A stretch of 64,000 nt of DNA, from positions 1 through 64,000 of the forward strand of contig JAGMBO010000044.1 of NCBI GenBank assembly GCA_023129715.1, written 5' to 3'. This DNA is from Candidatus Eiseniibacteriota bacterium (GTDB lineage Bacteria > Eisenbacteria > RBG-16-71-46 > CAIMUX01 > WJJG01). Positions 1,893 to 58,813 of this stretch are shown here, one piece after another. The translations under genes and the position numbers were made by a program. The notes under the pieces were generated by a model. The model was not told the origin of the DNA. It worked only from the letters and a program-made list of their open reading frames with translations, and searched no databases. The stretch's first letter is position 1. Every line of letters begins with the position of its first letter.

Positions 1893-1957
1893 AGGTGGCC
1901 GTCTCCAACTCTACTGGCGTGCCCGTGGTCAAGGTGGCCGTTTCCAACTCGCTACTG
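1893..1957. repeat. Two direct repeats resembling an IS21-family element end
   Basis: AGGTGGCCGTCTCCAACTC (1893-1911) recurs as AGGTGGCCGTTTCCAACTC (1932-1950), 39 bp apart, each followed by a TACTG-type sequence. IS21-family insertion sequences carry multiple short repeats at their ends, and from memory the GGTGGCCG-TTTC-AAC core resembles those of some members. No istA or istB gene is visible, so this would be a remnant. A perfect 7-bp inverted repeat, GCTACTG-CAC-CAGTAGC (1951-1967), abuts the second copy and includes the stop codon of the next gene. Confidence 0.4.
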
Positions 1958-5428: not shown

Positions 5429-6892
5429 GTGTGGCGGACTTCCGTCGCTGGTGCAGTGCTGTTCGTCCTGTCCGCGCCCGCTCACCCCACCACCCATCTC
5501 GTCCGGCCCGACGGGACGGGGGACTGGCCGACGATACAGGCAGCGGTCGCTGCCGCACTCGGGGGAGATGTCATCGAGCTCGCTGATGGTGTCTTTGCCG
5601 GTCCGGGCAATCGCGATGTGGACATCATCGGCAAGGAGCTCGCGATCTGCTCGCAGAGCGGTGACCCTATGGCCTGCCAGGTCGATTGCCAGGGTACTCC
5701 GAACGAGCCCCATCGTGCCCTGCTCTTCTGGACTGCGAGCAGGCCTTACACCGGCAGCGTTGAAGGAATCACCTTCATCCACGGCTATGCCGAGTTTGGT
5801 GGCGGTGTGCTTTGCCGCGAACATGCCCACATCTCCTTCGCGAATTGCGTTTTCCGGGAAAACGAGGCGGTCCTGGGTGGGGGGCTTTGCTGTGTGGCGG
5901 ACGAGGGCTCCCTTCTCGGAGGATCGGCTGGGGGCCAACGGGATGTTCCCTTGTATGTGATCTCGGACTGCTTCTTCGAGAACAATCATGCACTGGGAAC
6001 GGGCGGAGCCGCATATCTCCTCACCGGCAGCTATCTTCTCGAGCACTGCAGAATCACCTCGAATGAAGGCGATGGGATCAGCTGCATGTACGCTGTGACC
6101 GACTACACCGACTGCGACTTCCGCGACAATACCGGGCCGCGCGGTGCGCTCGTGTGGGAAACCTGTTTCTTCACCTCCACGATCCAGGGTTGCACCTTCC
6201 GTGGCAATGCTCCGGCGGCGCTCTACAACAATCACAATGTCGATATTCATATCGAGAGCTGCACGTTCTGGAGCAACGCCGTCGCGATCCAGGATGAGTG
6301 GGCGACGCCCTGTGTGCTGGCACGGACGATCATTGCCAACAGCTCGGTGGCTGCGTTCGGAGAAGAGGACAACGCCACTCTGACTTGCTGCGATCTCTTT
6401 GGCAATGCCGGCGGCGACTGGGTCGGCTCGATCGCCGAGCAACTCGGCATCAACGGCAACTTCTCCGCCGACCCGTGCTTTTGCGATGCCAAGAACGGCG
6501 ACTACCACCTCTGGAACTACTCCCCCTGCAACCAGGAGGGGTGTGGGTTGATCGGCGCATGGCCCGTGGGATGCTCGGATCCGCAGGTGATGGTGCCGGT
6601 GCCGGAACCGCGGACTCGTGCGCCGCGGGCGAGCGTCTCCCCGAATCCCGTGGCAGGACCTGCCCAGATCCGCTATGTGCTGCCCACGCGCGCGAAGCAG
6701 CTTGCCCGGTTCACTATCTACGACCCTGCCGGGCGCGCAGTCCGGACGCTCATGAGTGCCGGGCAGGCCACCGGCGCTCTCACCTGGGACGCCACCGACG
6801 CGCGCGGACATCGTGTTCCCTCGGGTGCGTACTTCCTACGTCTCCGCGTCGGGGAGCAAGAGGTGGTGAGGAGGGTGGTAGTCGTCCACTAG
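5429..6892 (+). CDS. Secreted right-handed beta-helix protein with FlgD-like tail
   Basis: 487 residues from a GTG start preceded by AGGAGGGGGG. A short hydrophobic signal segment (residues 8-20) leads into the VRPDGTGDWPTIQAAV motif that opens pectate-lyase-like parallel beta-helix domains of FCB-group surface proteins. The repeat region (about 90-370) has characteristic FANCVFRENEA and IQGCTFRGNAP rungs. The tail from about residue 398 (SVSPNPVAGPAQIRY to GAYFLRLRVGE) is a FlgD-like sorting-type domain similar to those of the two proteins at 187-1809 and 1952-3412. It may bind or cleave polysaccharide, but no catalytic residues can be assigned. Confidence 0.8.
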   Translation: MWRTSVAGAVLFVLSAPAHPTTHLVRPDGTGDWPTIQAAVAAALGGDVIELADGVFAGPGNRDVDIIGKELAICSQSGDPMACQVDCQGTPNEPHRALLFWTASRPYTGSVEGITFIHGYAEFGGGVLCREHAHISFANCVFRENEAVLGGGLCCVADEGSLLGGSAGGQRDVPLYVISDCFFENNHALGTGGAAYLLTGSYLLEHCRITSNEGDGISCMYAVTDYTDCDFRDNTGPRGALVWETCFFTSTIQGCTFRGNAPAALYNNHNVDIHIESCTFWSNAVAIQDEWATPCVLARTIIANSSVAAFGEEDNATLTCCDLFGNAGGDWVGSIAEQLGINGNFSADPCFCDAKNGDYHLWNYSPCNQEGCGLIGAWPVGCSDPQVMVPVPEPRTRAPRASVSPNPVAGPAQIRYVLPTRAKQLARFTIYDPAGRAVRTLMSAGQATGALTWDATDARGHRVPSGAYFLRLRVGEQEVVRRVVVVH

Positions 6893-34677: not shown

Positions 34678-35460
34678 ATGGCTGCACAGGGACTGATCGG
34701 CATCGTCTTGGCGGGCGGCTTGGGTAGTCGCCTGAGCCCGTTGACCAGGGTGACCAACAAGCACTTGCTCCCGGTCTACGATCGGCCGATGATCTACTAC
34801 CCGATCGAGACGCTCGCCCAGGCCGGCATCCGCGACATTCTGCTCGTCACCGGCGGCAACAACGCCGGGGATTTCCTGCGCCTGCTCGGCAATGGGCGGG
34901 ACTTCGGACTCAGCCACCTCGACTACGTCTACCAGGAGGGCGAAGGGGGCATCGCCGCCGCGCTCTCCCTGGCACGGTACTACGCGCAGGGCAAGCGGAT
35001 GGTCGTGATCCTCGGCGACAACATCATCGCCGATGACATCACCCCGCACGTCGAGCGCTTCGCCCAGCAGGAGCGCGGGGCGAAGATCCTGCTGAAGGAA
35101 GTCGACGATCCGCAGCGCTTCGGGGTCGCCGAACTCGCCGAGGACCGCGTCGTGGGGATCGAGGAGAAGCCGCAGCGGCCCAAGACCCGCTACGCCGTGA
35201 CCGGCATCTACATGTACGATGACCAGGTCTTCGGGATCATCGACCGACTCGCGCCCTCGCAGCGCGGGGAACTCGAGATCACCGACGTCAACAACGCCTA
35301 CATCGGTTGGGGCCAGCTGACCTTCGACTTCCTCGATGGTTGGTGGACCGACGCCGGGACGTTTGGATCGCTCCTGCGCGCCAATGTCCTCGTTGCCCGG
35401 CAGCGGGACATGCCGCTGCCGCCGGGTGTCCCCGGGAGCGGGCCCGAAGCGGGAGCATGA
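34678..35460 (+). CDS. Glucose-1-phosphate nucleotidyltransferase (RfbA/RmlA-like)
   Basis: 260 residues, a short RmlA-like form. Nucleotide-binding loop IVLAGGLGSRLSPLT with the following NKHLLPVYDRPMIYYPIE; ILGDNII; GIEEKPQRPKTRYAVTGIYMYD; and WTDAGTF all match thymidylyl- or uridylyl-transferases. It would supply dTDP-glucose or a related sugar nucleotide for surface polysaccharide. No other rml genes are present. Starts 42 bp after rsmA and overlaps the next gene by 4 bp. Confidence 0.87.
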   Translation: MAAQGLIGIVLAGGLGSRLSPLTRVTNKHLLPVYDRPMIYYPIETLAQAGIRDILLVTGGNNAGDFLRLLGNGRDFGLSHLDYVYQEGEGGIAAALSLARYYAQGKRMVVILGDNIIADDITPHVERFAQQERGAKILLKEVDDPQRFGVAELAEDRVVGIEEKPQRPKTRYAVTGIYMYDDQVFGIIDRLAPSQRGELEITDVNNAYIGWGQLTFDFLDGWWTDAGTFGSLLRANVLVARQRDMPLPPGVPGSGPEAGA

Positions 35461-37406
35461 GCAGGCAAGGCAGCAGAAGCAAGGAGCTCGGGGGGCGGCT
35501 GGTGACGGCGCTGCTGGCGGCGCTGCTCTGCGGCGTGAGCGCCGAGAGCCGGGCGGAGGCCTCAACATCCTCCTCCACCACGACCTCATCCCCATCCTCC
35601 ACCCCTGCGGACGAGACGATCCTCACCCGCTACGGGATTCGTCCCCGCTACGATACGTCGTTTCGCGTCAACCGCCAGGAGCGGAGCTGGAGCCAGACAC
35701 TCGCTTTCAGCCGCGGCGGCGGACTCGCCAACCTGAACGTGTCGCTCAATGTCAAGACGCGGGAAGATGAGACCCGCAACGACTTCGAGGAAGGGATCAA
35801 CGGCTTGAAGATCAGCGTCGGCCGCAGCAGCCGGCTGGGCAAGCTGTCCTTCAGTACCGCCGCCAACCGCAGATACACGCAGACCTCTCAGTCTCTGCAT
35901 TCGCGTGACAGCGACCAACTCGCCTTCACCAATACTCTGCCGCTGCGTGCGGCCGAGACCTCTTCGCTGAACTTGAGTTTCGGGCTTGGGTGGGTCGAGG
36001 ACCGTGAGGTCAAAGAGAACCGCCGCCTGACCACGACCGTGGATCGCACCGTGGCGACCGGATGGGAGGCGGATGCGAACCTGAAGGGCGAGTGGGCCCT
36101 GCACAGCGCCGTGAGCCTCGATGTGGGAACCAACTGGAACGGGTCGGTGCAGTCCTCACGCACGACGCACACCGAGGAGGGGGGGGGCGATGCCTTCGAG
36201 GCGACCGATCACAGGCGCGACAACCGCGCATTCGCCAATCTCGAGTGGAGTCGCAGTGAAGGTTTGCACGTCCTGCTGAAGACCAACTGGGGGGATGCCG
36301 TCGCGCAGTACTACCAGGCCTCCGCCGAGACCCAGGAGACGAAGCGGCACAACAGCCGCTCCGTCGATCTGACCGCCGACGGGGCCTTTGCCGGGCAGTT
36401 CGGCTACGTTGCGAAGATCTTCGCCGACCGCCGGCAGTTCGACTACCAGGTCGAGGCGAACGACAAGCTGAACGCAACGACGAAATACGAGCTCACGCTG
36501 GAATACCTCCCCCGCCTGCCCTTGCTGCGCGGCGGAACGCTGAGTGGAACGGCATCGCTGAGCAACAAGCGCAGCCAGCGACAGAAGACGACTCCGAGTG
36601 ACATCGAGGGCACGCTGCTCGAGGCGAAGTTCATCCGGCCGTTGGGAGAACAGTTCACTCTGACGATGCGCACGCGCGGCGACCTCGAGCAGTACTTCTA
36701 TGACGACGGATCCCTCGACAAGGACCGGTTACGCTTGGCCAATCAGGTCTTCCTGCGCTACAAGCGCGGGCCCGGCCTGCGCGCCAGTCTCGGCTACGCG
36801 TCGAACGAGGTCGAGGAGGTTCACATCCCCAGCAATCGTGCGGCTCAGAGCCAAGTGAAGAATGACTATCGCGTAACGGCCGACTATGACGCCGCTCTTC
36901 CGGCGGGGATCCGGATCAGCCAGAACTTCCAGATCAGCGCGACCTACACGTACTATGTGTATGATGAGAATCGCAATGCTCTGCGGCGCTCGAACCGGGT
37001 CACCACCAAGCTCGCCGTGCCCCTGATCGAGCACTCTTCGATCAGCTTGGTGCACATCTTCGAGAAGGCGGACAGGGGCAGCTACCGCTATCCCGAGAGC
37101 GAGGAGGGGCGGGTCTACAACAAGACCCAGCTCGACTTGCGGCAGAACCTGAGCGCCAAGATCGAGTATACGATTGCGGGAGCGATTACCCTGAGGGTGA
37201 CCGAGGACCTACGGATCACCTCGAACAAGCAGCACGCGACCGATGCGGTCACGCGGCGCGAGGCGCATTCCTTCTCGGGCTTTGTCGGCCTGCGCCGCAA
37301 CCTCGAGAATGGGATGATGGTGACAGCCAACTTCGAACGGACCGAGAGCAACAATGAAGACCCCTACTGGAAAATCGATGCCCGGGTGCAGAAGACCTTC
37401 GACTAG
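35457..37406 (+). CDS. Large beta-strand-rich outer-membrane protein, unknown function
   Basis: 649 residues with a signal peptide (about 15-32, ending SRAEA) and a Ser/Thr-rich linker (SSSTTTSSPSS). The rest is alternating-residue beta strands with charged turns (LNVSLNVKTRED, LSFGLGWVEDRE, VTADYDAAL), and the protein ends KIDARVQKTFD with a terminal aromatic, consistent with a beta-barrel of perhaps 26 or more strands. No named family is recognised. The start at 35457 lies in an ATGA overlap with the nucleotidyltransferase, suggesting the same transcript. Its 3' end overlaps the next gene by 53 bp if the earlier start of that gene is used. Confidence 0.7.
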   Translation: MSRQGSRSKELGGRLVTALLAALLCGVSAESRAEASTSSSTTTSSPSSTPADETILTRYGIRPRYDTSFRVNRQERSWSQTLAFSRGGGLANLNVSLNVKTREDETRNDFEEGINGLKISVGRSSRLGKLSFSTAANRRYTQTSQSLHSRDSDQLAFTNTLPLRAAETSSLNLSFGLGWVEDREVKENRRLTTTVDRTVATGWEADANLKGEWALHSAVSLDVGTNWNGSVQSSRTTHTEEGGGDAFEATDHRRDNRAFANLEWSRSEGLHVLLKTNWGDAVAQYYQASAETQETKRHNSRSVDLTADGAFAGQFGYVAKIFADRRQFDYQVEANDKLNATTKYELTLEYLPRLPLLRGGTLSGTASLSNKRSQRQKTTPSDIEGTLLEAKFIRPLGEQFTLTMRTRGDLEQYFYDDGSLDKDRLRLANQVFLRYKRGPGLRASLGYASNEVEEVHIPSNRAAQSQVKNDYRVTADYDAALPAGIRISQNFQISATYTYYVYDENRNALRRSNRVTTKLAVPLIEHSSISLVHIFEKADRGSYRYPESEEGRVYNKTQLDLRQNLSAKIEYTIAGAITLRVTEDLRITSNKQHATDAVTRREAHSFSGFVGLRRNLENGMMVTANFERTESNNEDPYWKIDARVQKTFD

Positions 37407-38061
37407 CGGGGCGCAGTCGGATCGCCGGGCGCTCGGCGACACCCCCGCGCCCGGACGCCGGAGAGCAGGCGGTGCACATGGCCGTGCGGGCCGGCTGGCG
37501 CTGCTGCTCTGCGCGGCGCTCTTGCTCGGCGGGTGCCTGTTCAGCACGCGCAAGGATGAGGGAGACGTCGATCCCAATGGAGGGGCGGTCTGGCTGCCCC
37601 CGGTGACGCTGGGCAACGCGCTCGGCAACATGCAACGGGCCCTCGAGAAGGGCGTGCTGACTAACTATGGTAACTCGTTCAACGATAGTTACTTCGAAAT
37701 GGTGCTCGACCCGGCCGATCTGTCCGAGCTGGGCCAGAACGAATTCGACACCTGGAACGCGTCCCTGGAAGAACAGCGGATGTCGGGGATTCTGATCAGC
37801 ACCGAGGCGACCCTCGAGGTCTTCTGGGTGCCGCGCGACTCGGTGGATCAATCGTCCAGTGTGCGCTACTATGAAGACTTAGCCTATCGCTTGGAGTTCG
37901 CTGAGCCGACCCGCTCGGTGACCTATTCCGGCAAGGTCGACCTCTGGTTCGAGGACGATGGGGCCGGGGAATGGTATATCACGAAGTGGATCGATAAGCG
38001 CGACGGCTCTCCCAACCGCACCTGGAGCTGGTTGCGGGCTCGTAACCAAGTGGAATTCTAG
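37354..38061 (+). CDS. Lipoprotein of unknown function (copy 1)
   Basis: 235 residues. After a basic leader the hydrophobic segment ends in a lipobox, LLLGGC (Cys near 61). The mature part has NALGNMQRALEKGVLTNYGNSF and ends WYITKWIDKRDGS, sharing spacing and motifs with the following lipoprotein (NLLENLKMAYRERVVAEY... WTIVKWED). The start is uncertain: ATG at 37354 lies inside the upstream gene; 37378 is an alternative. Both give an unusually long basic leader before the lipobox. Probably sits in the outer or inner membrane. Confidence 0.68.
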   Translation: MKTPTGKSMPGCRRPSTSGAQSDRRALGDTPAPGRRRAGGAHGRAGRLALLLCAALLLGGCLFSTRKDEGDVDPNGGAVWLPPVTLGNALGNMQRALEKGVLTNYGNSFNDSYFEMVLDPADLSELGQNEFDTWNASLEEQRMSGILISTEATLEVFWVPRDSVDQSSSVRYYEDLAYRLEFAEPTRSVTYSGKVDLWFEDDGAGEWYITKWIDKRDGSPNRTWSWLRARNQVEF

Positions 38062-38274
38062 GCGGGCGATGCGGGGCGGCGAGTGCCCGCCGTGGGCGGA
38101 TATCCGCCCCGCGGGCAGCCGAGACGCCGGGGAATGGCGGAAACCTGACAGCTGCAGTCGGGGTTGAATCTGCTGGGTAGAGCCGCCGGCCAAGACCGTC
38201 GATAGCACGGGCGAGGAAGATCAATCGCAGGGATGCATTCCGGCCTCTACTGGGTTTCGAGGAGGATCCGAGCA

Positions 38275-38856
38275 ATGAGACGGACACTGCAGCTGGGAGT
38301 CAGCGGGTTGCTGCTCCTCCTGATGATTGCGGGCATCACCGGATGTCCCTTCTCTCCCGATTCGGGCAACGGCGACGACCCGCCCCCGGACTTGTTCAAG
38401 GCTCGCACCTCGCCGGAGAACCTGCTCGAGAACTTGAAAATGGCCTATCGGGAGCGGGTGGTCGCCGAGTACGAGAGTCTGTTGGCGATGGACTTCACCT
38501 TCTTGCTCTCCGCCGAAGATGCCGCCGAGCCCGGGATGCCCGAGTCCTGGGGGCGGCAGGATGAGATCGGGATCCACACGAACATGTTCGACTCCGACCG
38601 CGTGCAGGACCTGTCGCTGAGCTTCGATTCGGGGGACCGCGTTTTCGACCCGACCGATGGTCTCTGGACGATCACGATCACCAACGTGCGGTTGCGCCTC
38701 TATGGGGAGACGCCGGGGAACGAGGGTGAGGGGCCGGAGGAGTACAAGGTCGACAGCGGGACCTCGAAGTTCTGGTTCCGCGAGAATGACTGGACAGAAC
38801 CGGGAACCAGCAACAAGATATGGACGATCGTCAAGTGGGAGGACAATCCCATCTAG
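38275..38856 (+). CDS. Lipoprotein of unknown function (copy 2)
   Basis: 193 residues. Signal MRRTLQLGVSGLLLLLMIAG and lipobox ITGC (Cys 24). The mature region looks like a SnoaL/NTF2-sized alpha-beta protein: LLENLKMAYRERVVAEYESLL, then beta strands ending IWTIVKWEDNPI. It resembles the protein encoded just upstream and is probably a paralogue. Start fixed by GAGGAGGATCC. The 213-bp gap before it shows no clear feature. Confidence 0.75.
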   Translation: MRRTLQLGVSGLLLLLMIAGITGCPFSPDSGNGDDPPPDLFKARTSPENLLENLKMAYRERVVAEYESLLAMDFTFLLSAEDAAEPGMPESWGRQDEIGIHTNMFDSDRVQDLSLSFDSGDRVFDPTDGLWTITITNVRLRLYGETPGNEGEGPEEYKVDSGTSKFWFRENDWTEPGTSNKIWTIVKWEDNPI

Positions 38857-38908
38857 TCCCCTCCAGGTTATCCGGGGCGCTCGCCCCGGGCAGTGGAAGG
38901 CGTTGTCG

Positions 38909-39385
38909 ATGAGCCGCAAGGCGGGATCTTCGCGGGCCGGGCGCTGGGCGCTCGGCCCGCTTCTGATAGCCTTCTTTTCCGGGGCTCTGTTGGTCGTCTT
39001 GGTCGTCGTCCTCCTCGAGTGGCCGGCGAGGCGTCCTGGGGGGGCAACTGCGGCCGCCGGGCGTCCGGCGGTGCAGGAGCAACTCGCCGGGCTGGCCGCA
39101 CTGCTTGATTCCCAGGCGGAATGGGAACAGATCGGTGACGTGAGCTGCCCGGAATGGCATGGCCGGATCGTTGATGAGACGAGTCTGGTGCGCTGGAACG
39201 CCGGGGCCACCGCCGCCCTGGGGGCGGCGGGTTTCGAGATCCTCGCCGGGAAAGAGGATCTGATCCACCGCCGCAATCGCTGGCCGCTGCAGAGATTGAC
39301 TCTCGAAGTCGGGGTTGCCGGCGAGCAGATCGCCACGGTGATTGTCGAGACGGGGCGTTCTCCGAGCCTGCCGCCGCCCTTCTAG
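38909..39385 (+). CDS. Small membrane-anchored protein of unknown function
   Basis: 158 residues with a single N-terminal membrane helix (about 17-37, rich in Leu and Val) and a 120-residue domain outside the cytoplasm. GGAAGG lies ahead of the ATG at 38909. The domain has WNAGATAALGAAGFEIL and closes with strands EVGVAGEQIATVIVETG. No family recognised. Last gene of the run that starts with the barrel protein at 35457. Confidence 0.6.
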   Translation: MSRKAGSSRAGRWALGPLLIAFFSGALLVVLVVVLLEWPARRPGGATAAAGRPAVQEQLAGLAALLDSQAEWEQIGDVSCPEWHGRIVDETSLVRWNAGATAALGAAGFEILAGKEDLIHRRNRWPLQRLTLEVGVAGEQIATVIVETGRSPSLPPPF

Positions 39386-39770: not shown

Positions 39771-41357
<1,587 letters not shown>

Positions 41358-41427: not shown

Positions 41428-42348
41428 ATGCTGACCTTCGTCACCGATACCCACATCGACTTCATGTCCAAGCGCCGGGCGTTTTTCGTCGTCTCGGCAG
41501 TGGTCATCCTGGCCGGGATTGTCTCCTTTGCCTTGCATGGCGGCTTGCGCCTGGGCATCGACTTTGCCGGCGGGCGGCTGATCGAGTACCGCCTGGGTGA
41601 AGACCTGACGATCGACGAGCTGCGCACGGCGGCGGCGGCGGCCGGCTACGCAACCGCCGAGATCCAACCGGTGCGCGGCCGCAGTTACGTGCTCTTCCGC
41701 ATCTCCGATATCGACGTCGCCGAGCAGGAGGGTGGTGAGATTTCCCCGTCGGCGGAGATCCGCGATGCCCTGACCGCGGCGCATCCCGGCATGGAGGTCG
41801 AATTGCTCCGCGAGGAGAGCGTCGGGGCGAAGATCGGCAAGGAGATTCGCGGGCAGGCCATCTGGGCGATGTTGATCGCCCTCGGGCTGATCCTGATCTA
41901 TATCGCAATTCGTTTTGAGTTCCGCTTCGGTGTCGGCGCGGTCGTTGCTCTGTTGCACGATGTGCTCGTGACCTTGACGGTGCTGTCGATGCTCGACCGC
42001 GAGATCACCATGCCCGTGGTCGCCGCGCTGTTGACGATTGCCGGATACTCGATCAACGACTCGATCGTCGTCTTCGACCGGATCCGCGAACAGCTCGTGC
42101 GTCTCCGCCGGGAATCCTTCCCCGGCGTGCTCAATGTCAGCATCAACCAGGTGCTCTCGCGCACCGTGGTGACCTCGCTGACGACGCTCTTTGTGGCGCT
42201 CTCACTGTTGATCTTCGGTGGTGAGATCATCCGGGACTTCGCGCTCGCGATGGCGATCGGCGTGATCGTCGGGACCTACTCTTCGATCTTCGTCGCCAGT
42301 GCGCTGGTGCTCGAGTTGCGCCAGGCGGCCGAGGCGCGCGCTTCCTAG
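41428..42348 (+). CDS. secF: Protein translocase subunit SecF
   Basis: 306 residues, six membrane helices. Conserved GIDFAGGRLIEYR in the periplasmic loop and GYSINDSIVVFDRIREQL in the C-terminal half, followed by SRTVVTSLTTLFVALSLLIFGG. Works with SecD. Start preceded by GCGGGAAA. Confidence 0.95.
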   Translation: MLTFVTDTHIDFMSKRRAFFVVSAVVILAGIVSFALHGGLRLGIDFAGGRLIEYRLGEDLTIDELRTAAAAAGYATAEIQPVRGRSYVLFRISDIDVAEQEGGEISPSAEIRDALTAAHPGMEVELLREESVGAKIGKEIRGQAIWAMLIALGLILIYIAIRFEFRFGVGAVVALLHDVLVTLTVLSMLDREITMPVVAALLTIAGYSINDSIVVFDRIREQLVRLRRESFPGVLNVSINQVLSRTVVTSLTTLFVALSLLIFGGEIIRDFALAMAIGVIVGTYSSIFVASALVLELRQAAEARAS

Positions 42349-42514
42349 GCGGCCCGGTCAACATCCACCCGGCAGCGAGGCCGCGCGCGTCCCCGGGTTC
42401 TCCCCCCATGTTCGATCTCGGAACCGATGGGTCTGCAATGGGTTCCAATCGTAGACCGGCCGTGCGGCCTGCCCGGTCGCCGGCCCGACCACGCGCAGAC
42501 CTGAGGAGGTGTTC

Positions 42515-43255
42515 TTGAGAGCCTCGTCCAGGATCGGGATCCTGCATCTGCTCATCCTGACGGTTTTTCCATTGGGTCTCGGGATGGCGGCCCCCGTGGC
42601 GGCCGACCCGCTCGGGGGCCCGGGGCTGGTGTTGGCACGGCTGAAGTATGGGGGTGGGGGAGACTGGTACAGCAACCCGACCTCGCTGCCCAATCTGTCG
42701 CGGGCCCTCGCCGAGCGCACCTCGATTCCGATGCAGCGCCATCAGGAGGCGCGCGTGGCGCCCCTGGACGAGGAGCTCTTCGACTATCCGCTGCTGTACA
42801 TGAATGGCCACGGCACGATCAAGCTGACCGAGGCGGAGAAGGCACGGTTGCGCGAGTATCTGCTCGGGGGCGGGTTCCTCTTCGCCGATGACAATTATGG
42901 GATGGATGCGAGCTTCCGCGAGATGATCGCCGCGGTCTTCCCCGATCGAGCGCTCGTCGAGGTGCCCTTCGATCACCCGATCTATCACTCTTTCTACGAG
43001 TTCGACCAGGGTCCCCCCAAGATCCACGCGCACGACGACAAGCCCCCGCAGGGGTTCGGGATCTTTGATCGGGGGCGTCTGGTCGTCTTCTACACGTACG
43101 AGGCCGATATCGGGGATGGGTTGGAGGATGCCGATGTCCACAGCGACCCGCCCGAGAAACGGGAGGCGGCCCTGCGGATGGCGATCAATGTCGTCGTCTA
43201 TGCCCTAACGGGCGAAGCGGCGGCCAATCGAATCGGGGTCTCCGGCGGGGCCTAG
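42515..43255 (+). CDS. DUF4159 secreted protein
   Basis: 246 residues. Signal peptide (about 6-30, ending PVAADP). The DUF4159 core includes LARLKYGGGGDWYSNPTSLPNL, LLYMNGHG (about 90-97), YLLGGGFLFADDNYG and VPFDHPIYHSFYEF. The fold is related to class I glutamine-amidotransferase/ThuA-like domains, function unknown; it is often encoded with MoxR/BatA-type and DUF4175 genes. A TTG at 42515 is chosen because GAGGAGG ends five bases before it; a GTG at 42509 overlaps that ribosome site. Confidence 0.82.
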   Translation: MRASSRIGILHLLILTVFPLGLGMAAPVAADPLGGPGLVLARLKYGGGGDWYSNPTSLPNLSRALAERTSIPMQRHQEARVAPLDEELFDYPLLYMNGHGTIKLTEAEKARLREYLLGGGFLFADDNYGMDASFREMIAAVFPDRALVEVPFDHPIYHSFYEFDQGPPKIHAHDDKPPQGFGIFDRGRLVVFYTYEADIGDGLEDADVHSDPPEKREAALRMAINVVVYALTGEAAANRIGVSGGA

Positions 43256-43347
43256 GAGGGTTCGTTCGCCGGCACGACCTGGGGTACGCTGCCAGGTCTG
43301 CCGCCGGGGGTGCGCGGCCCGCCGCGCGGGACGAGGAACGAGAGCTG

Positions 43348-46300
43348 ATGGCAACCGACTCGCACAGGGCTGCTGCCGCGCGCCGCGCGGCGCCGCACGG
43401 GGAGGCCGGAATCGCGGTCCTGCTGCGGCATGGGCGTCGGGCGCGCCTCCGGCGGCAGAGCATCGAGATTCTCCTGGGGTGGGTGGGGCTCTGCCTGCCC
43501 GGGCTGGCCCTGCTCTTTCTCGCGGGGCTGGCGGTGCCGCCGGAGCGGCACTGGTCGGGGATCATGGCGGGTCTGGCCCTGGTCTGGATCGTGGGGACGC
43601 TGCTCTGGGTGGCTCGGGGGGCTCTCTGGCGGCGCCTCAGCCTCGCCGCCTATGCCCAGTGGCTCCAGCGTCTCGCCGGCCTGCGGCGCAACGAGCTGAC
43701 CAATGCGTTGGCTCTCGAGCGGGATCGCGCCCGTTGGGCGGATGATCCGATTTCACGCGATCTCGTCGAGCTGGCGATTGTCCGCGCTCGTGAGCGATTT
43801 CGCCGGCTGTCCCTGCGCGCGCTCCACGCTCGTCGCTCGCTGCGGGGCCCGCTGCTGCGCGCTGCGGCCGCGGGGCTGCCCCTCCTGCTCGTTGCGTTGC
43901 TCGCCCCCGCGCGCTTCGCCGACACCGCCCGGCTCTTCCTCGCCGCGGGCGGGGTGGGGGTCGTGCCGCCGGTCACCCTGGAGGTTTCTCCGGGCGCCGA
44001 GCGGGTTGAATGGGGCGCCTCGGTGGAGATCGAAGCGACCATCGCCGGCCGCCGGCGGCCCGACGGCGCCGCGATCGAGATGCGCCGTCCCGATGGAGAC
44101 TGGACCGCGGTGCCGATGGTGCGCGTTCCCCGGGGGGATGACCGCGACCGCTACTCGTTCCTGATCAGCTCGCTCAAGGGGGATCTCGACTACCGCATCG
44201 AGGCCCGCTGGGCGAGCAGTCCGGTCTATCACCTGCGCGTGGTGCACCGCCTGCAGGCGACGGGCTACCGCAAACGCTATGAGCCTCCCGCCTACACGGG
44301 GCTGGCCCCGCAGCGCGAGGTCTCCTCGGCGGGCGACCTGGCTGGGCTGGTCGGGACCATCGTGACCCTCGAGGTCCTCCATCGGCGTCCGGAGATCGCG
44401 GGGCGGATCCTCTTCGACGCCGGCGGCGATCCGTTGCCCCTGCGACCCGTCGCCGACGATCGCCTGGGTGCGAAGTGGGCGCTCACGACCTCCGGAAGCT
44501 ACCGCGTCGAGTTGCGCGATCCGCGCGAGGACGAGCGCTGGCTCTCGGATGTCTTCACGATCGAGGCGGTTCCCGACCTGGCGCCGTTGGTACGGCTGTT
44601 GAGCCCGCCGCCGGTGATCGACATGCCTCCGGAGATGCAGGTGCCCCTGGAGGTCGATTGCGTGGACGATTTCGGGGTGACCGAGGTTGCCCTGATTTAT
44701 GGCCGTCCCGGCGACGATCCGACCCGTGAGGTTCTGCGTCGCTGGATGCCGGCCAACGCCGCCGCCGCGGGCGCGACCGGCAGGGCTGCCCCGATGAGTG
44801 CTCCCGCCGATGTGGAGGCGCCGGGGGGGGCGGAGAGCGGCTCCGGCGGGGTGGAAGGCCCGTTTGGTGGAGTGCCGGCGGAGGCGCGGATCGTGCACGT
44901 CTGGAACCTCGAGTCGCTGCCGCTCCTGCCGGGCCAGGAGTTGCACTACTTCCTCCAGGTTCTCGACAACGATCCCCTGCATGGACCGAAGTCGGCCGAG
45001 ACGCCGCTCGCCACGATCCGCTTCCCGACGATGGCCGAGATGTACGTTCAGGCCGAGGATCAGCGGGAGAACGAGATCGAGTCGATGGCCGAAACTCTCG
45101 CCGATCAGGAGGGATTGCGGGAGAGCTTGCAGCGGATCTCGCGCGAGATGCTGCGCGAGGACGAGATCTCCTGGGAGCGCCAGCAAGAGCTCGGGGATCT
45201 GCTGCAGCGCCAGGAAGAGCTGGGTCGCAAGATCGAGCAGCTCGAGCAATCGCTCGAGGCCTCGGCCCAGCGCATGGAGAACCAGAGCCTCTTCTCGATG
45301 GAGGTGCTCGAGAAAGTCCGCCAGATCCAGGAACTGGTGCAGCAGGTCCACAGTGAGGATTTCCGCCAGGCGGTCGAACGCATGCAGCAGGCGTTGCAGG
45401 ATCTCGATCAGCGGGAACTGCAGCGCGCCATGGAGCAGATGAAGGTGACCCAGCAAGAGGTCAGCCAAGCGCTCGACCGGACGTTGCAGATGCTGCGCCG
45501 CCTGCTCGCCGAGGAGCAACTCGACCGCATCCTCCAGCAGCTCGATGAGCTGACGACCCGTCAGGCGGCGATCAACGAACAGCTCGCCCAGCAGGCCGCG
45601 GGTGAGACGCCCGAGACGCCTCCTGTGCCCGAGCGTGCCGGGGAGACGCCGCCTGGGGAACAGCAGGCGGCGGCCGATTCCGCCGGCGCGCCGAGTGAGC
45701 CGCAGCCGCTGAGCGAGGCCGAGGCGGAGGCGTTGGAGAAGGAGCAGGAGCGGCTGGAGCGCGAGCTGGCCGAGCTGCAGGAGATGCTCGAGAAGCTCGA
45801 GAAGGGTGACGCCGCCGTCCTGGATGACCTGCGTCAGGCGCTCGAGGAGATGCGCGAGCAAGGGGAGGCTGAGCAGGCGCTCGAAGAGATGCGCCGGGCG
45901 CGCGAGGCGATGGCGCAGAATGACCGGGAGTCCTCGTTGCGCTTTGGCCGCCGGGCCCAGAAGCGTCTCGAGCAGATGCAATCGGGTCTGAGCGCGATGA
46001 GGCAGGAGATCGATCAGGAGCGTCTCGAGTACCTGGTGCGGGCGCTCTTCGGGCTCGCCAACCGGATGGTGGATGTCTCGCTGCGCCAGGAGACGCTCGT
46101 CGCCCGGGGGCGCTCCCAGGGGCCGCACGAATTGGCTGTGCGCCAGCAGGAGCTCTACGAGGAGACACAGGCGCTGACCGACTCGCTGCAGGCGCTTTCG
46201 CGCGAGGTGCCCCTGATCGGGATGCCTCAGATGCGGGCCATGGGAGAGGCCCTGAAGAATCTCGGGGCGGCGCGCGACGCATTCGAAACGGGACAGCGGG

Positions 46301-46962
46301 GGCGAGCGGTCTCGCTGGCCGAGGAATCGGTGCGCGCGGTCAATGCGGCGGTCAGGACGCTACTGGAGAGCGCTGCCCAGGCCCAGAGTTCCTGCCAGTC
46401 GAGCTGTCCCAATCCCTTCAATCGCATGCAGTGCCTCACCGGCCAGCAGTCCTCCCTGAATCAGGAGACCCGGCAGATGATGGGCGCCTGCCAAACTCCG
46501 CGCCTGACGCAGAGCCAGCAGCAGGGGATGATGCGCCTGGCGGCGCGCCAGGAGATGATCCGCCAGGGGCTCGACGAGATTCAGGGGAGCATGCAGGGCT
46601 CGCAGCAAATGCTCGGGGATCTGCAGTCGGTCGTCGAGGAGATGGAAGAGGTCGCCGAGCAGCTGCGTCAGCGCAATGCGGATCCCCGCATCATCGAGCG
46701 CCAGGAGCGGATCTTGAGCCGGCTGCTCACCGCCCAGCGCAGCATCCGCCAGCGCGACCGGAGCGAGCAGCGGGAGTCACGGACCGCCCGCGATCGGGGC
46801 CCGCGGGCCGGCCCGCCGCCGGTCGATGAGGGCGAGTCGCTCGCTGAGCGCCTGCAACGGGCGATGCTGCGCGGCAGCCAGGATCCCGTGCCGGCGGAGT
46901 ACCGGCCCCTGGTCGAGCAGTATCTGCGCTCGTTGTTGCGCCGGCCCGCGGGTCGGCGGTGA
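43348..46962 (+). CDS. DUF4175-like giant membrane protein with coiled coil
   Basis: 1204 residues. Three membrane helices near the start (about 38-61, 70-90 and 168-186) precede a periplasmic beta-rich region (200-545) and a very long Gln/Glu/Arg-rich coiled coil (565-1200) broken by a proline-rich stretch (about 750-790). A cysteine-rich spot, SSCQSSCPNP, lies near 1015. Layout and composition fit DUF4175-family proteins found next to DUF4159 in FCB and proteobacterial genomes; none has a defined biochemical role. It may be a scaffold spanning the envelope. Followed at 20 bp by the TPR gene. Confidence 0.75.
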   Translation: MATDSHRAAAARRAAPHGEAGIAVLLRHGRRARLRRQSIEILLGWVGLCLPGLALLFLAGLAVPPERHWSGIMAGLALVWIVGTLLWVARGALWRRLSLAAYAQWLQRLAGLRRNELTNALALERDRARWADDPISRDLVELAIVRARERFRRLSLRALHARRSLRGPLLRAAAAGLPLLLVALLAPARFADTARLFLAAGGVGVVPPVTLEVSPGAERVEWGASVEIEATIAGRRRPDGAAIEMRRPDGDWTAVPMVRVPRGDDRDRYSFLISSLKGDLDYRIEARWASSPVYHLRVVHRLQATGYRKRYEPPAYTGLAPQREVSSAGDLAGLVGTIVTLEVLHRRPEIAGRILFDAGGDPLPLRPVADDRLGAKWALTTSGSYRVELRDPREDERWLSDVFTIEAVPDLAPLVRLLSPPPVIDMPPEMQVPLEVDCVDDFGVTEVALIYGRPGDDPTREVLRRWMPANAAAAGATGRAAPMSAPADVEAPGGAESGSGGVEGPFGGVPAEARIVHVWNLESLPLLPGQELHYFLQVLDNDPLHGPKSAETPLATIRFPTMAEMYVQAEDQRENEIESMAETLADQEGLRESLQRISREMLREDEISWERQQELGDLLQRQEELGRKIEQLEQSLEASAQRMENQSLFSMEVLEKVRQIQELVQQVHSEDFRQAVERMQQALQDLDQRELQRAMEQMKVTQQEVSQALDRTLQMLRRLLAEEQLDRILQQLDELTTRQAAINEQLAQQAAGETPETPPVPERAGETPPGEQQAAADSAGAPSEPQPLSEAEAEALEKEQERLERELAELQEMLEKLEKGDAAVLDDLRQALEEMREQGEAEQALEEMRRAREAMAQNDRESSLRFGRRAQKRLEQMQSGLSAMRQEIDQERLEYLVRALFGLANRMVDVSLRQETLVARGRSQGPHELAVRQQELYEETQALTDSLQALSREVPLIGMPQMRAMGEALKNLGAARDAFETGQRGRAVSLAEESVRAVNAAVRTLLESAAQAQSSCQSSCPNPFNRMQCLTGQQSSLNQETRQMMGACQTPRLTQSQQQGMMRLAARQEMIRQGLDEIQGSMQGSQQMLGDLQSVVEEMEEVAEQLRQRNADPRIIERQERILSRLLTAQRSIRQRDRSEQRESRTARDRGPRAGPPPVDEGESLAERLQRAMLRGSQDPVPAEYRPLVEQYLRSLLRRPAGRR

Positions 46963-46982
46963 CCGTGACTGGAGAGCTGCCC

Positions 46983-48644
46983 ATGGCGCGTACTCGACAG
47001 ATCAAGCATCGCCACGGCCTGGGATTTGTCCTAGTGCTGGCCGGCCTGCTCTGTACGGCCGCCGGCGCGGGCGCGCAGAGTGTCTCGCGGGCACAGGTGC
47101 CGGTCGACCGCAAGCAGCAGATCGCGCAGGCGGAGCGACTGGTCCGCCAGGGGCGGGCGCCCGAGGCGCTGCCGATTCTCGAGATGCTTCACCGGCGCTA
47201 CCCCGATGATCCACGCGTGCTGCTCGCCCTGGCCTCGGCCCATCTCCATGGCGGCAACCAGGACAGCGCCATCGTGCTGCTGCGCACCGCGGCCGAGGAG
47301 CGCGGCGAGCGCGATCCAAACCTCTGGGTGCAACTCTCACGCTTCCATCGCCGGGCGGGCGACGGGCGGGCGGCGGTCGCGGCCCTGTTGCGCTGCATCG
47401 ATCAGCGCCCGATCTGGGCCGAACGCCTGCGGGACCGGTTCGAGCTGCTGGTTGCCGACAGCACCGTCGGAGATAGCGCCCTGGCCGCGCTGGAGGAGGC
47501 CGCTCTGCCTGCCGAGGCGGGGAGCGCCTACAAGGAGCTGCTGGCGCACGTTTATGCCATCGGGGGACGCACTGCCGAGGCCCTGCGTTTGGTGATGGAG
47601 GTCGATCGGGCCCAGAGCGGGCGGGGCCGGGTGCTCTTCCCGCTGGCGCGGACGCTCTCCGGGCGCAGTGAGCCCTCCCATGCGCTGGCGGCCTTCGACT
47701 CGGTGCTGGCGCTCGAACCGCGCCCCGACCTTGCGCAGGAGGTCTGGTTCGAGAAGGCGCGCCTGCTGGCCACCCGCGGGCGTGCCGCCGAGGCGGTCGC
47801 CGCCTACACGGCCGCCGAGGAGCAGCTTCCCCGGGGACCGCTCGGGGCGCGGGCGGCGCTGGCGCGCGCCGAGTTGATCGCCGACGAGCTAGGCGATCTG
47901 GCTGCGGCCCGCGCGGTCTTTGTGGAACTGCTGCGCCGCATCGATCAGCAGCCGCGCGCGCATCGGCAGCAATCGCTGCGGGATCAGGCTCGCCTGGGAC
48001 TGGCCGACTGCGCGCTGCGCCAGGAGGATTTCGACGCCGCCGGTGAGCGCTACGGTGAATTGGAACGGGGCGCCTCCCGCGCCGAGATTCGTGAACGGGC
48101 CGCCTTCGAGCAGGCCGAGATTCTCTTCTTCGCCGGAGGCTTCGATGAGGCCGAGGAGGCCTACTACCAGCTCAGCGATCGCTACCCCCAGGGCGTGTGG
48201 GTCAACGACGCCTTGCAGCGGGTGCTGCTGCTGGGCGAGCGTCGCGGCGCACGCGGTCTGGAGGACCTCGCGCGCGTGCTCTATCTGCGGCGCGTCGGAC
48301 GCCGCGAGGAGGCCCTGGCGGTGACCCGGGAAGCTCTCGGGGCGGCGGGGGAGACGCCCTTGGCCCCCGAACTCTACCTGCAGGCGACGCAGCTCTGTGG
48401 CGAGCTCGACCGGGCGGCGCAGGCCGACAGCGCGCTCGGGCGCCTGTTGGGCGAGCACCCGGAGAGCCGGGCGGCGCCGGCGGCGCTGCTGTGGCTGGGG
48501 AATCTCCTGGCCCAGTCGCCGGCGGGGCGCGATCGTGCGCGGGAGTACTACGAGCGGATCCTCCTCGAGTACCCGCGGGCTTTCGAGGCGCGCCGTGCGC
48601 GCGCCATGTTGCGTGTCTTGATGGCGACCGAGGATCAATCCTAG
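46983..48644 (+). CDS. Secreted TPR-repeat protein
   Basis: 553 residues. Signal peptide (about 8-30, AGAGA). Then about ten tetratricopeptide-like helical repeats (QAERLVRQGRAPEALPIL, LASAHLHGGNQDSAIVLL, AEILFFAGGFDEAEEAYYQL, YYERILLEYPRAFEARRARA). A periplasmic protein-binding scaffold. The ATG at 46983 with GGAGAG ahead is preferred to a GTG at 46959 in the overlap with the upstream gene. Same operon as the DUF4159 and DUF4175 genes. Confidence 0.8.
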   Translation: MARTRQIKHRHGLGFVLVLAGLLCTAAGAGAQSVSRAQVPVDRKQQIAQAERLVRQGRAPEALPILEMLHRRYPDDPRVLLALASAHLHGGNQDSAIVLLRTAAEERGERDPNLWVQLSRFHRRAGDGRAAVAALLRCIDQRPIWAERLRDRFELLVADSTVGDSALAALEEAALPAEAGSAYKELLAHVYAIGGRTAEALRLVMEVDRAQSGRGRVLFPLARTLSGRSEPSHALAAFDSVLALEPRPDLAQEVWFEKARLLATRGRAAEAVAAYTAAEEQLPRGPLGARAALARAELIADELGDLAAARAVFVELLRRIDQQPRAHRQQSLRDQARLGLADCALRQEDFDAAGERYGELERGASRAEIRERAAFEQAEILFFAGGFDEAEEAYYQLSDRYPQGVWVNDALQRVLLLGERRGARGLEDLARVLYLRRVGRREEALAVTREALGAAGETPLAPELYLQATQLCGELDRAAQADSALGRLLGEHPESRAAPAALLWLGNLLAQSPAGRDRAREYYERILLEYPRAFEARRARAMLRVLMATEDQS

Positions 48645-48659
48645 AGGAGACGTACGTCG

Positions 48660-50000
48660 GTGGCAGATCGGAGCGGGGTTTTCTTGACTTGGGGCCGGCG
48701 TGCGCCGGCGGCCGTAATGCAGGCGTGCGCACGCCAAGGGATCGCCGCTGCGATGGCGGGACTGTTCTTGCTCGCCGCCGGCAGCACCAGCGTGGGGGCG
48801 GCGCTGCTGATCCCGATGGATTTGCTGCAGACCGATCATCTCAAGGCCTACGGGATCGCCTTCCAGGCGCTCGAGATGGGCACCGACGTGGAGTGGCTGC
48901 TCAACTACCGCGGCGGGGCGTTTCTGATGGAGGATCGCGAGGAACTGCGCCGCGCGATGCTGATGCGCGGCGTCTTCTTCGAGGCGGCCGGCGCCGGCGA
49001 GCAGGCGCAGATCTATCAGGAGATCGAAGAACACAACATGGAGGTGATCCTGCTGGAGAAGGCCCCGCGGATCGCTGTCTATGTCCCTCCCGCCACGGTG
49101 ACCGAGCCCTGGGACGATGCGGTCATCCTGGCCCTCGAATACGCCGACATCCCCTATGACACGGTCTACGACGAGGCGATCCAGTCGGGGCGCCTGGCCG
49201 CTTATGACTGGTTGCATCTGCATCACGAGGACTTCACCGGCCAGTATGGGAAGTTCTACGCCAGCTTCCGCCACGCCGCCTGGTATCAGAATCGCAAGGC
49301 CCAGGCAGAGGCGTCTGCGCAGGCGGCGGGGTATGCGAAGGTCTGGCAGCACAAACATGCCACCGTCCAGCGGATTCGTGAATATGTCGCCCGCGGCGGA
49401 TTCCTTTTCGCGATGTGTTCGGGCTGCGATACGTACGACATCGCCCTGGCGGCCGGGGATGTCGACATCGTCGATGTGGTCAACGACGGCGATGCCCCTG
49501 ATCCGCGCGCCCAGGAACGGCTCGATTTCAGCCGCTGTCTGGCTTTCGAGGACTTCCGCCTCGAGGTGAACCCGTTCATCTACGAGTTCTCCAACATCGA
49601 CATGAGCGACTACTCGCGGCTGCGTGGGGCGGAGGCCGATTTCTTCGTGCTCTTCGAGTTCTCCGCCAAGGAAGACCCGGTGCCGACCATGCTGACCCAG
49701 TGCCACGTCAACATGCTCAACGGGTTCATGGGGCAGACGACCAGCTTCAATCGCGAGACGCTGAAACCGGCGACCCTGGTCCTGGCCGAGGTGCCCGGGA
49801 CCGAGGAAGTCCGCTACATCCACGGCAGTTTCGGTCAGGGCACCTTCACCTTCCTGGGAGGGCACGACCCCGAGGACTACGAGCATCGCGTCGGAGATCC
49901 GCCGACGCAGCTCGAGTTGCACAAGAGCTCGCCGGGGTACCGGCTGATCTTGAACAACATCCTTTTCCCGGCGGCCAAGAAGAAGGAACGGAAGACCTAA
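48660..50000 (+). CDS. Secreted amidotransferase-fold-like protein of FCB type (often mis-named asparagine synthetase B)
   Basis: 446 residues from a GTG start behind AGAGGAG. Hydrophobic export segment about 27-48 (GLFLLAAGSTSVGA). The mature protein begins LLIPMDLLQTDHLKAYGIAF and contains VEWLLNYRGGAFL, WLHLHHEDFTGQYGKFY and, near 250, FLFAMCSGCDTYDIALA, which resembles the nucleophile-elbow context of class I glutamine-amidotransferase folds. From memory, similar proteins in FCB genomes carry the automatic name asparagine synthetase B, but no N-terminal cysteine or synthetase domain is present here. Possibly an enzyme or a scaffold paired with the DUF4159 protein. Confidence 0.65.
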   Translation: MADRSGVFLTWGRRAPAAVMQACARQGIAAAMAGLFLLAAGSTSVGAALLIPMDLLQTDHLKAYGIAFQALEMGTDVEWLLNYRGGAFLMEDREELRRAMLMRGVFFEAAGAGEQAQIYQEIEEHNMEVILLEKAPRIAVYVPPATVTEPWDDAVILALEYADIPYDTVYDEAIQSGRLAAYDWLHLHHEDFTGQYGKFYASFRHAAWYQNRKAQAEASAQAAGYAKVWQHKHATVQRIREYVARGGFLFAMCSGCDTYDIALAAGDVDIVDVVNDGDAPDPRAQERLDFSRCLAFEDFRLEVNPFIYEFSNIDMSDYSRLRGAEADFFVLFEFSAKEDPVPTMLTQCHVNMLNGFMGQTTSFNRETLKPATLVLAEVPGTEEVRYIHGSFGQGTFTFLGGHDPEDYEHRVGDPPTQLELHKSSPGYRLILNNILFPAAKKKERKT

Positions 50001-57244: not shown

Positions 57245-58813
57245 ATGGGGGTGCGTTCACAGGCGTACGTCGTACTGTTCACCGCGGTCGCGCTGGGGCT
57301 GCTCGCGCCGGGAGACGCGGCTGGACAGCAGGCGTGGATCATCGACGTCCAGGGCGCGCCATTCTCGCTCTACGACCCCAGCGTCTTCGAGCGGCCCTTC
57401 GGAGAGGGACCCTATCTCGCCGCAGTGCTGCCTCCCTTCCTCCATCGTCCGATCGATGATCTCGGCGCGCGCCCGGGTGCCGCCGCGATGGCGATGGGGG
57501 GAGCGCATACCGCGTTGGCCGCCGGACCGCTGGCGATGGCCTGGAATCCCGCCGGGCTGGCGGGGATGCGGGCCTCGCAGGTCGCCGTCGATGGGTTCTC
57601 GCTCAGTTCCTCGGGCTCGGCCGGCGATCTGCCCGACACGCTGATCATCCCCGGCTTCGGGGACTTCGGGATCAGCGGATACCGGAGTGCCCTCGGTTCC
57701 AGCAGTGGCTTCGGTTTCTTCGGGGCGGCAACGCCGCTGGTCTTCCTGGGAGGCCGCCCGCTGGTCGGCGGGGCCTGCTATCGGCGCCACACCGAGGTGG
57801 CCTACGGCCAAGAGAACCTGATCGAGATGAATTTGCTGCAGACGACCTCGGGGTTCCCGCTGAATCTCGGAATCGACAACGATGAACGCGGGTTCATCGA
57901 AAGCTACACCCTGGGCCTCGGCTACGAGCTGATTGCCTCCTCGCGCCTGGGCCTCAGTGTGGGAGCCACGGCCAATGTGCTCTCCGGCCGGCTGCGCTCA
58001 TCGAGCCTCACGCGGGTGGCGGTGCGCAACTTCGCGGAAGGGCATGGCCAGTATCGGCAGGACTATAAGGGGTTCGCCGCGGAGTTCGGCGCGCAGGCGC
58101 GGTTCGGCTCGCTGTTGCGTCTGGGTGGTTGGGTCGGGCTGCCCCACACGCTCGAGGTCTACGGCAGCCGCCTCGTCGACCTGCCCCTGATCTCGCCGGA
58201 TCAGCTGGTTACCTATCGGTTCCACTGGGAGATCGCCGACTACGATATGGAGCTGCCCCTCTTCGCGACCCTCGGTGCCGCGGTGGGACCGATCAAGGGG
58301 ATCGAGATCGCCGCGGACTACAACCACCGCCCCTGGTCCGAGGTCGAGATCAAGCACCGCGATGAGGCCTTCCAACAGTTCGACGGCCTGCTTCCCGCCG
58401 GGGATGTTTCAAGCTATCACGTCGGGGGACACTTCGAGTTCCCCTTGCTGCGGGGTTTCATTCATCGCGCCGGCATGGAGCTGACGACGCTGGTCGGCTA
58501 CCGGACGATGCCCCTCTCGATGCTCGAAATTGATCTGCAGGCCGGCACCGCACCCCACTATCGTGGCGATCAAGTCGAGGGAACGGCGACGACCTTCGGC
58601 TTCCTCCTCGATACCGGCCGGAATGTCTCCTTCTCGTTGGGTTTCGAGATGCGCTCCTATGACTACACCATGTGGTTCATGAACGATGCGCGCGAGCTGG
58701 GGACATTGGAGGAGCCGGGGCGCGATCTCTGGTTCCGGGACGAGGCCCGGCGGGTGATGTCGGTGAGCCGCGACGACACGATTCTGCGCTTCAGCTCGGA
58801 GCTGACGTTCTAG
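57245..58813 (+). CDS. PorV/OMPP1-like outer-membrane protein
   Basis: 522 residues. Signal peptide about 1-29. The N-terminal GARPGAAAMAMGGAHTALA and AMAWNPAGLAGM pair is the hallmark of the PorV/UPF0164/FadL-like barrel group. Beta strands follow to a final RFSSELTF with terminal Phe. The ATG at 57245 is chosen for its GAGGAG; 57227 is an alternative. Could be a type IX secretion partner or a hydrophobic-compound channel. A terminator follows at 58837. Confidence 0.75.
   Translation: MGVRSQAYVVLFTAVALGLLAPGDAAGQQAWIIDVQGAPFSLYDPSVFERPFGEGPYLAAVLPPFLHRPIDDLGARPGAAAMAMGGAHTALAAGPLAMAWNPAGLAGMRASQVAVDGFSLSSSGSAGDLPDTLIIPGFGDFGISGYRSALGSSSGFGFFGAATPLVFLGGRPLVGGACYRRHTEVAYGQENLIEMNLLQTTSGFPLNLGIDNDERGFIESYTLGLGYELIASSRLGLSVGATANVLSGRLRSSSLTRVAVRNFAEGHGQYRQDYKGFAAEFGAQARFGSLLRLGGWVGLPHTLEVYGSRLVDLPLISPDQLVTYRFHWEIADYDMELPLFATLGAAVGPIKGIEIAADYNHRPWSEVEIKHRDEAFQQFDGLLPAGDVSSYHVGGHFEFPLLRGFIHRAGMELTTLVGYRTMPLSMLEIDLQAGTAPHYRGDQVEGTATTFGFLLDTGRNVSFSLGFEMRSYDYTMWFMNDARELGTLEEPGRDLWFRDEARRVMSVSRDDTILRFSSELTF

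Follow-up and report, generated by a model that had tools for sequence, protein, structure and literature searches.

The window analysed here, a 64,000-nucleotide stretch of a contig from a Candidatus Eiseniibacteriota bacterium (phylum Eisenbacteria; genome G000), carries four genes on the forward strand at 42509-50000, downstream of secDF. They encode a DUF4159 protein, a DUF4175 membrane protein, a tetratricopeptide repeat (TPR) protein and a protein referred to as AMID. The four genes represent a real co-inherited module that very probably acts in the cell envelope of the Fibrobacteres-Chlorobi-Bacteroidetes (FCB) group. An even chance is given to the full reading, in which the module functions without MoxR, an AMID hydrolase is held on a DUF4175 scaffold, and the system supports type IX secretion.

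The DUF4159 gene spans 42509-43255 and is followed by the gene for the DUF4175 protein of 1204 aa at 43348-46962. The TPR protein of 553 aa is encoded at 46983-48644, with an alternative start of the open reading frame (ORF) at 46959, and AMID, with 415 aa, at 48753-50000. The first-pass annotation had described four neighbouring same-strand genes with gaps of 92, 20 and 15 bp. The ORF coordinates agree if AMID starts at a possible upstream GTG at 48660; with the ATG at 48753, the last gap is 108 bp. Homologue lengths favour the ATG without proving it. A single N-terminal segment was seen by hydropathy in each of the DUF4159, TPR and AMID proteins, and these three are predicted to be exported. 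A Pfam search of the window detected no MoxR, DUF58 or VWA/BatA protein among the cluster genes. As had been stated in the first-pass annotation, none of the four proteins has an established function.

The gene order was retained within the phylum of the window. Of 47 genomes, 42 had AMID and 41 had DUF4159; among the 26 of good quality, each was present in 25. At 22 of the 23 loci holding both ends of the cluster, the four genes were consecutive on one strand, with the TPR gene between those for DUF4175 and AMID. The exceptional locus contained one additional called ORF on the opposite strand. AMID identity ranged from 55% to 74% within the phylum. A scan of genome contigs with AMID gave at least 593 related places, of which the best 80 were considered; the FCB distribution of AMID is read from these and says nothing on absence outside FCB. 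All 80 were at least 54% identical, with 54-65% across FCB phyla. They included Cloacimonadota, KSB1, Calditrichota, Ignavibacteria, Bacteroidota, Latescibacterota, Krumholzibacteriota, Zixibacteria, Neomarinimicrobiota, WOR-3 and Delongbacteria, among others. Among AMID-bearing FCB genomes, DUF4159 and DUF4175 were each detected in 33 of 35. The complete four-gene cluster recurred in KSB1, Krumholzibacteriota, Neomarinimicrobiota, UBP1 and further lineages. The genes that the first-pass annotation had grouped are thus neighbours elsewhere too, so that the lack of such neighbourhood, which it had named as a refutation, was not observed. Since the order persists within one phylum and also outside it, chance does not account for it. 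In Bacteroidota, the module genes were split: AMID was often located 3' of dnaB, and DUF4175 ahead of an RsbW-like ATPase, ybeY and mnmG (names assigned by eye, except for the RsbW-like ATPase). One AMID locus was found in a record labelled Sphingomonadales; its gene order was of the Crocinitomicaceae type, and it probably stems from a mislabelled or mixed metagenome-assembled genome.

Joint inheritance was followed in 148 Bacteroidota genomes for AMID, DUF4175 and DUF4159. The TPR protein is the most divergent member of the cluster, often near 30% identity within the phylum of the window, and was too divergent and generic for profile tracing. AMID was present in 108 genomes, DUF4175 in the same 108 and DUF4159 in 109, namely these and G156. 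Accordingly, 40 genomes lacked AMID and DUF4175, and 39 lacked DUF4159. The single DUF4159 gene of G156 was located in a MoxR-DUF58-BatA-DUF4175-like cluster beside tldD/tldE-like genes. Since this context is shared by the second DUF4159 copies of G160 and G129, and a similar one was seen in G111, the G156 gene is the other paralogue. In a GroEL tree of 80 of these genomes, comprising all 40 losers and 40 carriers, six joint losses were needed, five of them forced by well-supported branches. The count rests on one gene tree, and GroEL may misplace individual genomes. When six losses were placed at random by branch length, at most four of the six stems were matched in 20000 draws. In relatives of the losers, the module genes were located on different contigs or megabases apart, so joint loss is not explained by single deletions. 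This co-inheritance argues for one system among the four genes. We are confident, though short of certain, that they form one functional unit, and the single system proposed in the first-pass annotation is partly supported, in the form of co-inheritance.

The loss pattern was compared with type IX secretion, using SprA as the marker. SprA_N was detected in 117 of the 148 Bacteroidota genomes, comprising all 108 module carriers and nine non-carriers. None of the 31 genomes without SprA had the module; they consist of G083 and one clade of 30 genomes, which may be Chlorobia. Both SprA losses fell on stems of module loss, with a chance of about 0.006 by branch length and about 0.001 by count. SprA was also present in 49 of 52 further genomes, including that of the window, where it passed the NCBIfam equivalog TIGR04189 with 504 bits against a cut-off of 200. 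This sprA gene was located on contig C152 (locus L361, 6432-13319) beside genes resembling rimP, nusA and infB, as named by eye. Within the window, type IX sorting tails above the TIGR04183 cut-off were found on secreted proteins encoded at 187-1809 (-), 1952-2899 (-) and 5456-6892 (+). The product of 57245-58813 showed similarity below cut-off to the BamG and PorV families.

Several points weigh against, or limit, the link to type IX secretion. Type IX secretion was chosen after the loss pattern had been seen and was the single marker system examined, and only the two SprA losses inform the link. The nine SprA-bearing Bacteroidota without the module imply that the module is not required for type IX secretion in every case. 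In the UBP1 genome G079, the cluster was present and a SprA match was absent, and G041 had DUF4159 and DUF4175 without SprA; both cases may be draft gaps. No module gene was seen regularly adjoining a type IX gene. SprA was found on a contig with module genes in two genomes, at a distance of 13-20 kb, but this was not above chance and was not used. None of the module proteins matched a known type IX component family of NCBIfam above cut-off; the similarity of the TPR protein to PorW/SprE reached 32.2 bits against a required 250. A literature search on how widely type IX secretion occurs among FCB phyla returned nothing useful. It may simply be that SprA and the module are equally ancestral. 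The pattern supports a functional tie between the two, which is rated slightly below even.

The best-surviving alternative, to which we assign roughly a one-in-three standing, is a general FCB module for envelope integrity or stress that has no tie to type IX secretion, both being ancestral traits lost together in reduced lineages. It is consistent with the retention of SprA in four of the six module losses and with the compact genomes of 2-3 Mb in the clade of 30 that lost both. Outside FCB, the MoxR/DUF58 operon RL3499-RL3502 (cmdA-D) of Rhizobium leguminosarum is reported to alter the envelope and cell shape when defective (PMC5700661). However, not one of the 148 genomes carries the module without SprA, and the coincidence of both SprA losses with module-loss branches is improbable by either estimate. 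One of these losses occurred in G083, which has a genome of 3.9 Mb on a single contig.

AMID had no family model in Pfam or NCBIfam. Its profile gave no match to PDB sequences, and tblastn against plasmids gave none either. The structure model had a predicted local distance difference test (pLDDT) score of 87.5, and Foldseek matched it to the amidotransferase-like STM3548 (E 2.7e-6) and to SpuA (E 3.4e-4). Because the TM-scores were modest, these matches suggest kinship of fold rather than orthology. By predicted fold, AMID is a member of the class I glutamine amidotransferase-like superfamily. The first-pass annotation had pointed to a site resembling a nucleophile elbow, AMCSGCDT, in a secreted protein. 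This motif comprises AMID residues 220-227, and in the model C222 (codon 49416-49418) is flanked by a strand and a helix, whereas H371 (49863-49865) and E374 (49872-49874) come after the last long strand. These positions agree with those expected in the secondary structure. All three residues were invariant in 61 of 61 AMID sequences. The protein ends in KKKxxKT, with the final Lys-Thr encoded at 49992-49997; this Lys-Thr terminus was present in 59 of the 61 sequences, and the remaining two ran off contig ends. The name asparagine synthetase B, which occurs in database annotation, found no support in Pfam, NCBIfam or the fold, and the literature found had no bearing on it.

DUF4159 was identified by PF13709 (E 9.5e-69; 231.4 bits against a Pfam cut-off of 25.9). 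The alignment showed an invariant DDxYG at 42887-42901 and an HxHD further along. The structure model (pLDDT 85.7) had PDB entry 4i66 as its top match (E 6.7e-15), followed by weaker matches to ThuA-like proteins and to GMP synthetase and other amidotransferase domains. Two of the four proteins had been taken as relatives of the class I amidotransferase fold, and structure prediction assigns DUF4159 and AMID to it. In a short profile match, which was weak with a probability of 27%, GGFLFAMC of AMID was aligned to GGFLFADD of DUF4159. This alignment suggests that DUF4159 has an Asp at the position of the AMID Cys.

A catalytic AMID with a Cys-His-Glu-like site appears somewhat favoured, on the grounds of the model and of conservation. 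The His-x-x-Glu spacing (H-D-P-E) counts against it, since it departs from the classical H-P-E. AMID and DUF4159 might instead be non-catalytic binders on an amidotransferase fold, comparable to the middle domain of GH42 enzymes, in a structural or sensory complex. The missing Cys nucleophile of DUF4159 agrees with such a role, as do the GH42 enzymes among the best fold matches of AMID, which probably align through that middle domain. This reading is nevertheless the less likely one: three residues of AMID are invariant, its Cys is placed at a strand-helix elbow, and its fold matches also include SpuA, which is a Cys-His hydrolase.

The second protein of the cluster scored 37.6 bits against PF13779 (DUF4175; cut-off 27.3), with part of the model covered. 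It had been called DUF4175-like, which recognised the relation but understated it, since the Pfam cut-off is passed and the protein is DUF4175 proper. Its description as a membrane coiled-coil protein is compatible with its composition and three membrane segments seen by hydropathy at residues 38-66, 69-94 and 167-191. These segments are followed by a beta-rich part and then by a Leu-rich half with abundant Glu, Gln, Lys and Arg, which fits a coiled coil. A conserved motif, RQxRILSRLLDAQRS, is located at the C-terminus. The bulk of the protein would be periplasmic, provided that the N-terminus is cytoplasmic. The secreted TPR protein of the first-pass annotation is supported by TPR_16 (E 8e-14) and the N-terminal segment seen by hydropathy.

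In the proposed mechanism, DUF4175 would serve as an inner-membrane scaffold with its C-terminal part in the periplasm, and the TPR protein would be the docking subunit. DUF4159 may bind a ligand or metal on its amidotransferase fold, having no Cys nucleophile. AMID would supply the catalysis, as a periplasmic Cys-His-Glu hydrolase or acyl-transferase whose target may be a bond of the amide or gamma-glutamyl type in some conserved component of the envelope. The module would work without a MoxR ATPase of its own. Its main role would be to maintain an envelope able to sustain type IX secretion, so that the proposed direction of the link runs from module to secretion. A stronger version would make AMID a periplasmic thiol enzyme that has escaped recognition and works from a complex with DUF4175, DUF4159 and the TPR protein; type IX secretion would depend on this enzyme in most lineages. 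Such a version is tentative and rather improbable. If true, it would add to the type IX system a new accessory complex with a new enzyme family.

Paralogues of DUF4159 and DUF4175 were found in MoxR-DUF58-BatA clusters of FCB genomes (loci L236 and L362-L365), with BatA identified by Pfam; one of these clusters held a VWA/GATase1_like protein. AMID was not seen in the paralogue clusters examined. At three Bacteroidota loci (L362, L363 and L365), a second DUF4159 gene was accompanied by tldD/tldE-like genes, MoxR, DUF58, BatA and a shorter DUF4175-like protein. DUF4159 is presumably also part of the Rhizobium cmdA-D operon. The module could be a client-maturation system driven by a MoxR ATPase whose gene lies at a different place in the genome, rather than an independent unit, which we consider improbable. 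Besides the paralogues, this reading is supported by the presence of MoxR genes in 39 of the 41 genomes examined and by MoxR near the loci of Latescibacterota and Kapabacteria. However, MoxR rarely adjoins the FCB-type module and is cytoplasmic, whereas export is predicted for DUF4159, the TPR protein and AMID. MoxR was located within 5 kb of an FCB-type DUF4175 gene in only two of the 39 MoxR-bearing genomes; this is about the level of chance, and MoxR was rejected as a regular neighbour.

The secD and secF genes were located at 39771-41357 (+; SecD domains and synteny) and 41428-42348 (+; PF02355, E 9.1e-66, and synteny), directly upstream as the first-pass annotation had noted, and are regarded as lineage-conserved neighbours rather than module members. 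An export or envelope-maintenance link had been suggested from this adjacency. The adjacency was regular in Eisenbacteria, with SecDF upstream at all loci, either adjoining or separated by at most five genes, but was missing at most other loci seen. An auxiliary of SecDF-driven export is quite improbable, because SecDF, although directly beside the module in Zixibacteria RBG-1 and within a few genes of it in a Kapabacteria genome, was not seen beside it at the KSB1, Neomarinimicrobiota, Krumholzibacteriota and Bacteroidota loci examined. The adjacency reflects lineage gene order and is no proof of an export link. Ahead of secD, the region 35457-39385 encodes small exported proteins as well as one protein of 649 aa that has no significant Pfam family; the gene order of this region was retained in related families.

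The module is a mostly single-copy gene set of no assigned function that is retained in most sampled FCB phyla. The conservation of AMID, which looks catalytic, matched or exceeded that of SecD and SecF across the same set of comparisons, yet AMID lacks a model in Pfam and NCBIfam. In the open literature searched, DUF4159 was not named in any paper found, and DUF4175 was named in one. The joint loss of unlinked genes predicts the same phenotype on deletion of any one of them, and the type IX carriers, within which the module is nested, provide a defined setting for seeking it. A hidden envelope component of a major bacterial group thereby becomes experimentally testable.

The individual proteins have relatives in known systems. 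Hoch_4089 of Haliangium ochraceum, the DUF4159 protein of PDB entry 4i66, was deposited as an uncharacterised protein and is kin to the DUF4159 of the window by sequence, with the same fold. AdvA of Acinetobacter baumannii has a cell-division role (PMC7481262); it is annotated with a DUF4175 domain and membrane helices, and belongs to a different organism group. SpuA and other class I amidotransferase-like hydrolases share with AMID its predicted fold and the order of a Cys elbow followed by His and Glu. AMID differs from them by its predicted export, its length of about 415 aa, its H-D-P-E motif and the lack of a sequence match in the PDB. The type IX system, with SprA, PorV, PorW and further components, accompanied the module in all module-bearing Bacteroidota sampled, but it also occurred without the module, and its named components had no counterpart above cut-off among the module proteins. 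The MoxR-DUF58-Bat/Cmd systems, known from the Bacteroides aerotolerance operon and Rhizobium cmdA-D, have FCB clusters that share DUF4159 and DUF4175 paralogues, TPR proteins and amidotransferase-fold domains with the module. The module has a distribution of its own and, because it contains no MoxR, DUF58 or BatA, is not filed as a member of these systems; it is best described as their MoxR-free relative.
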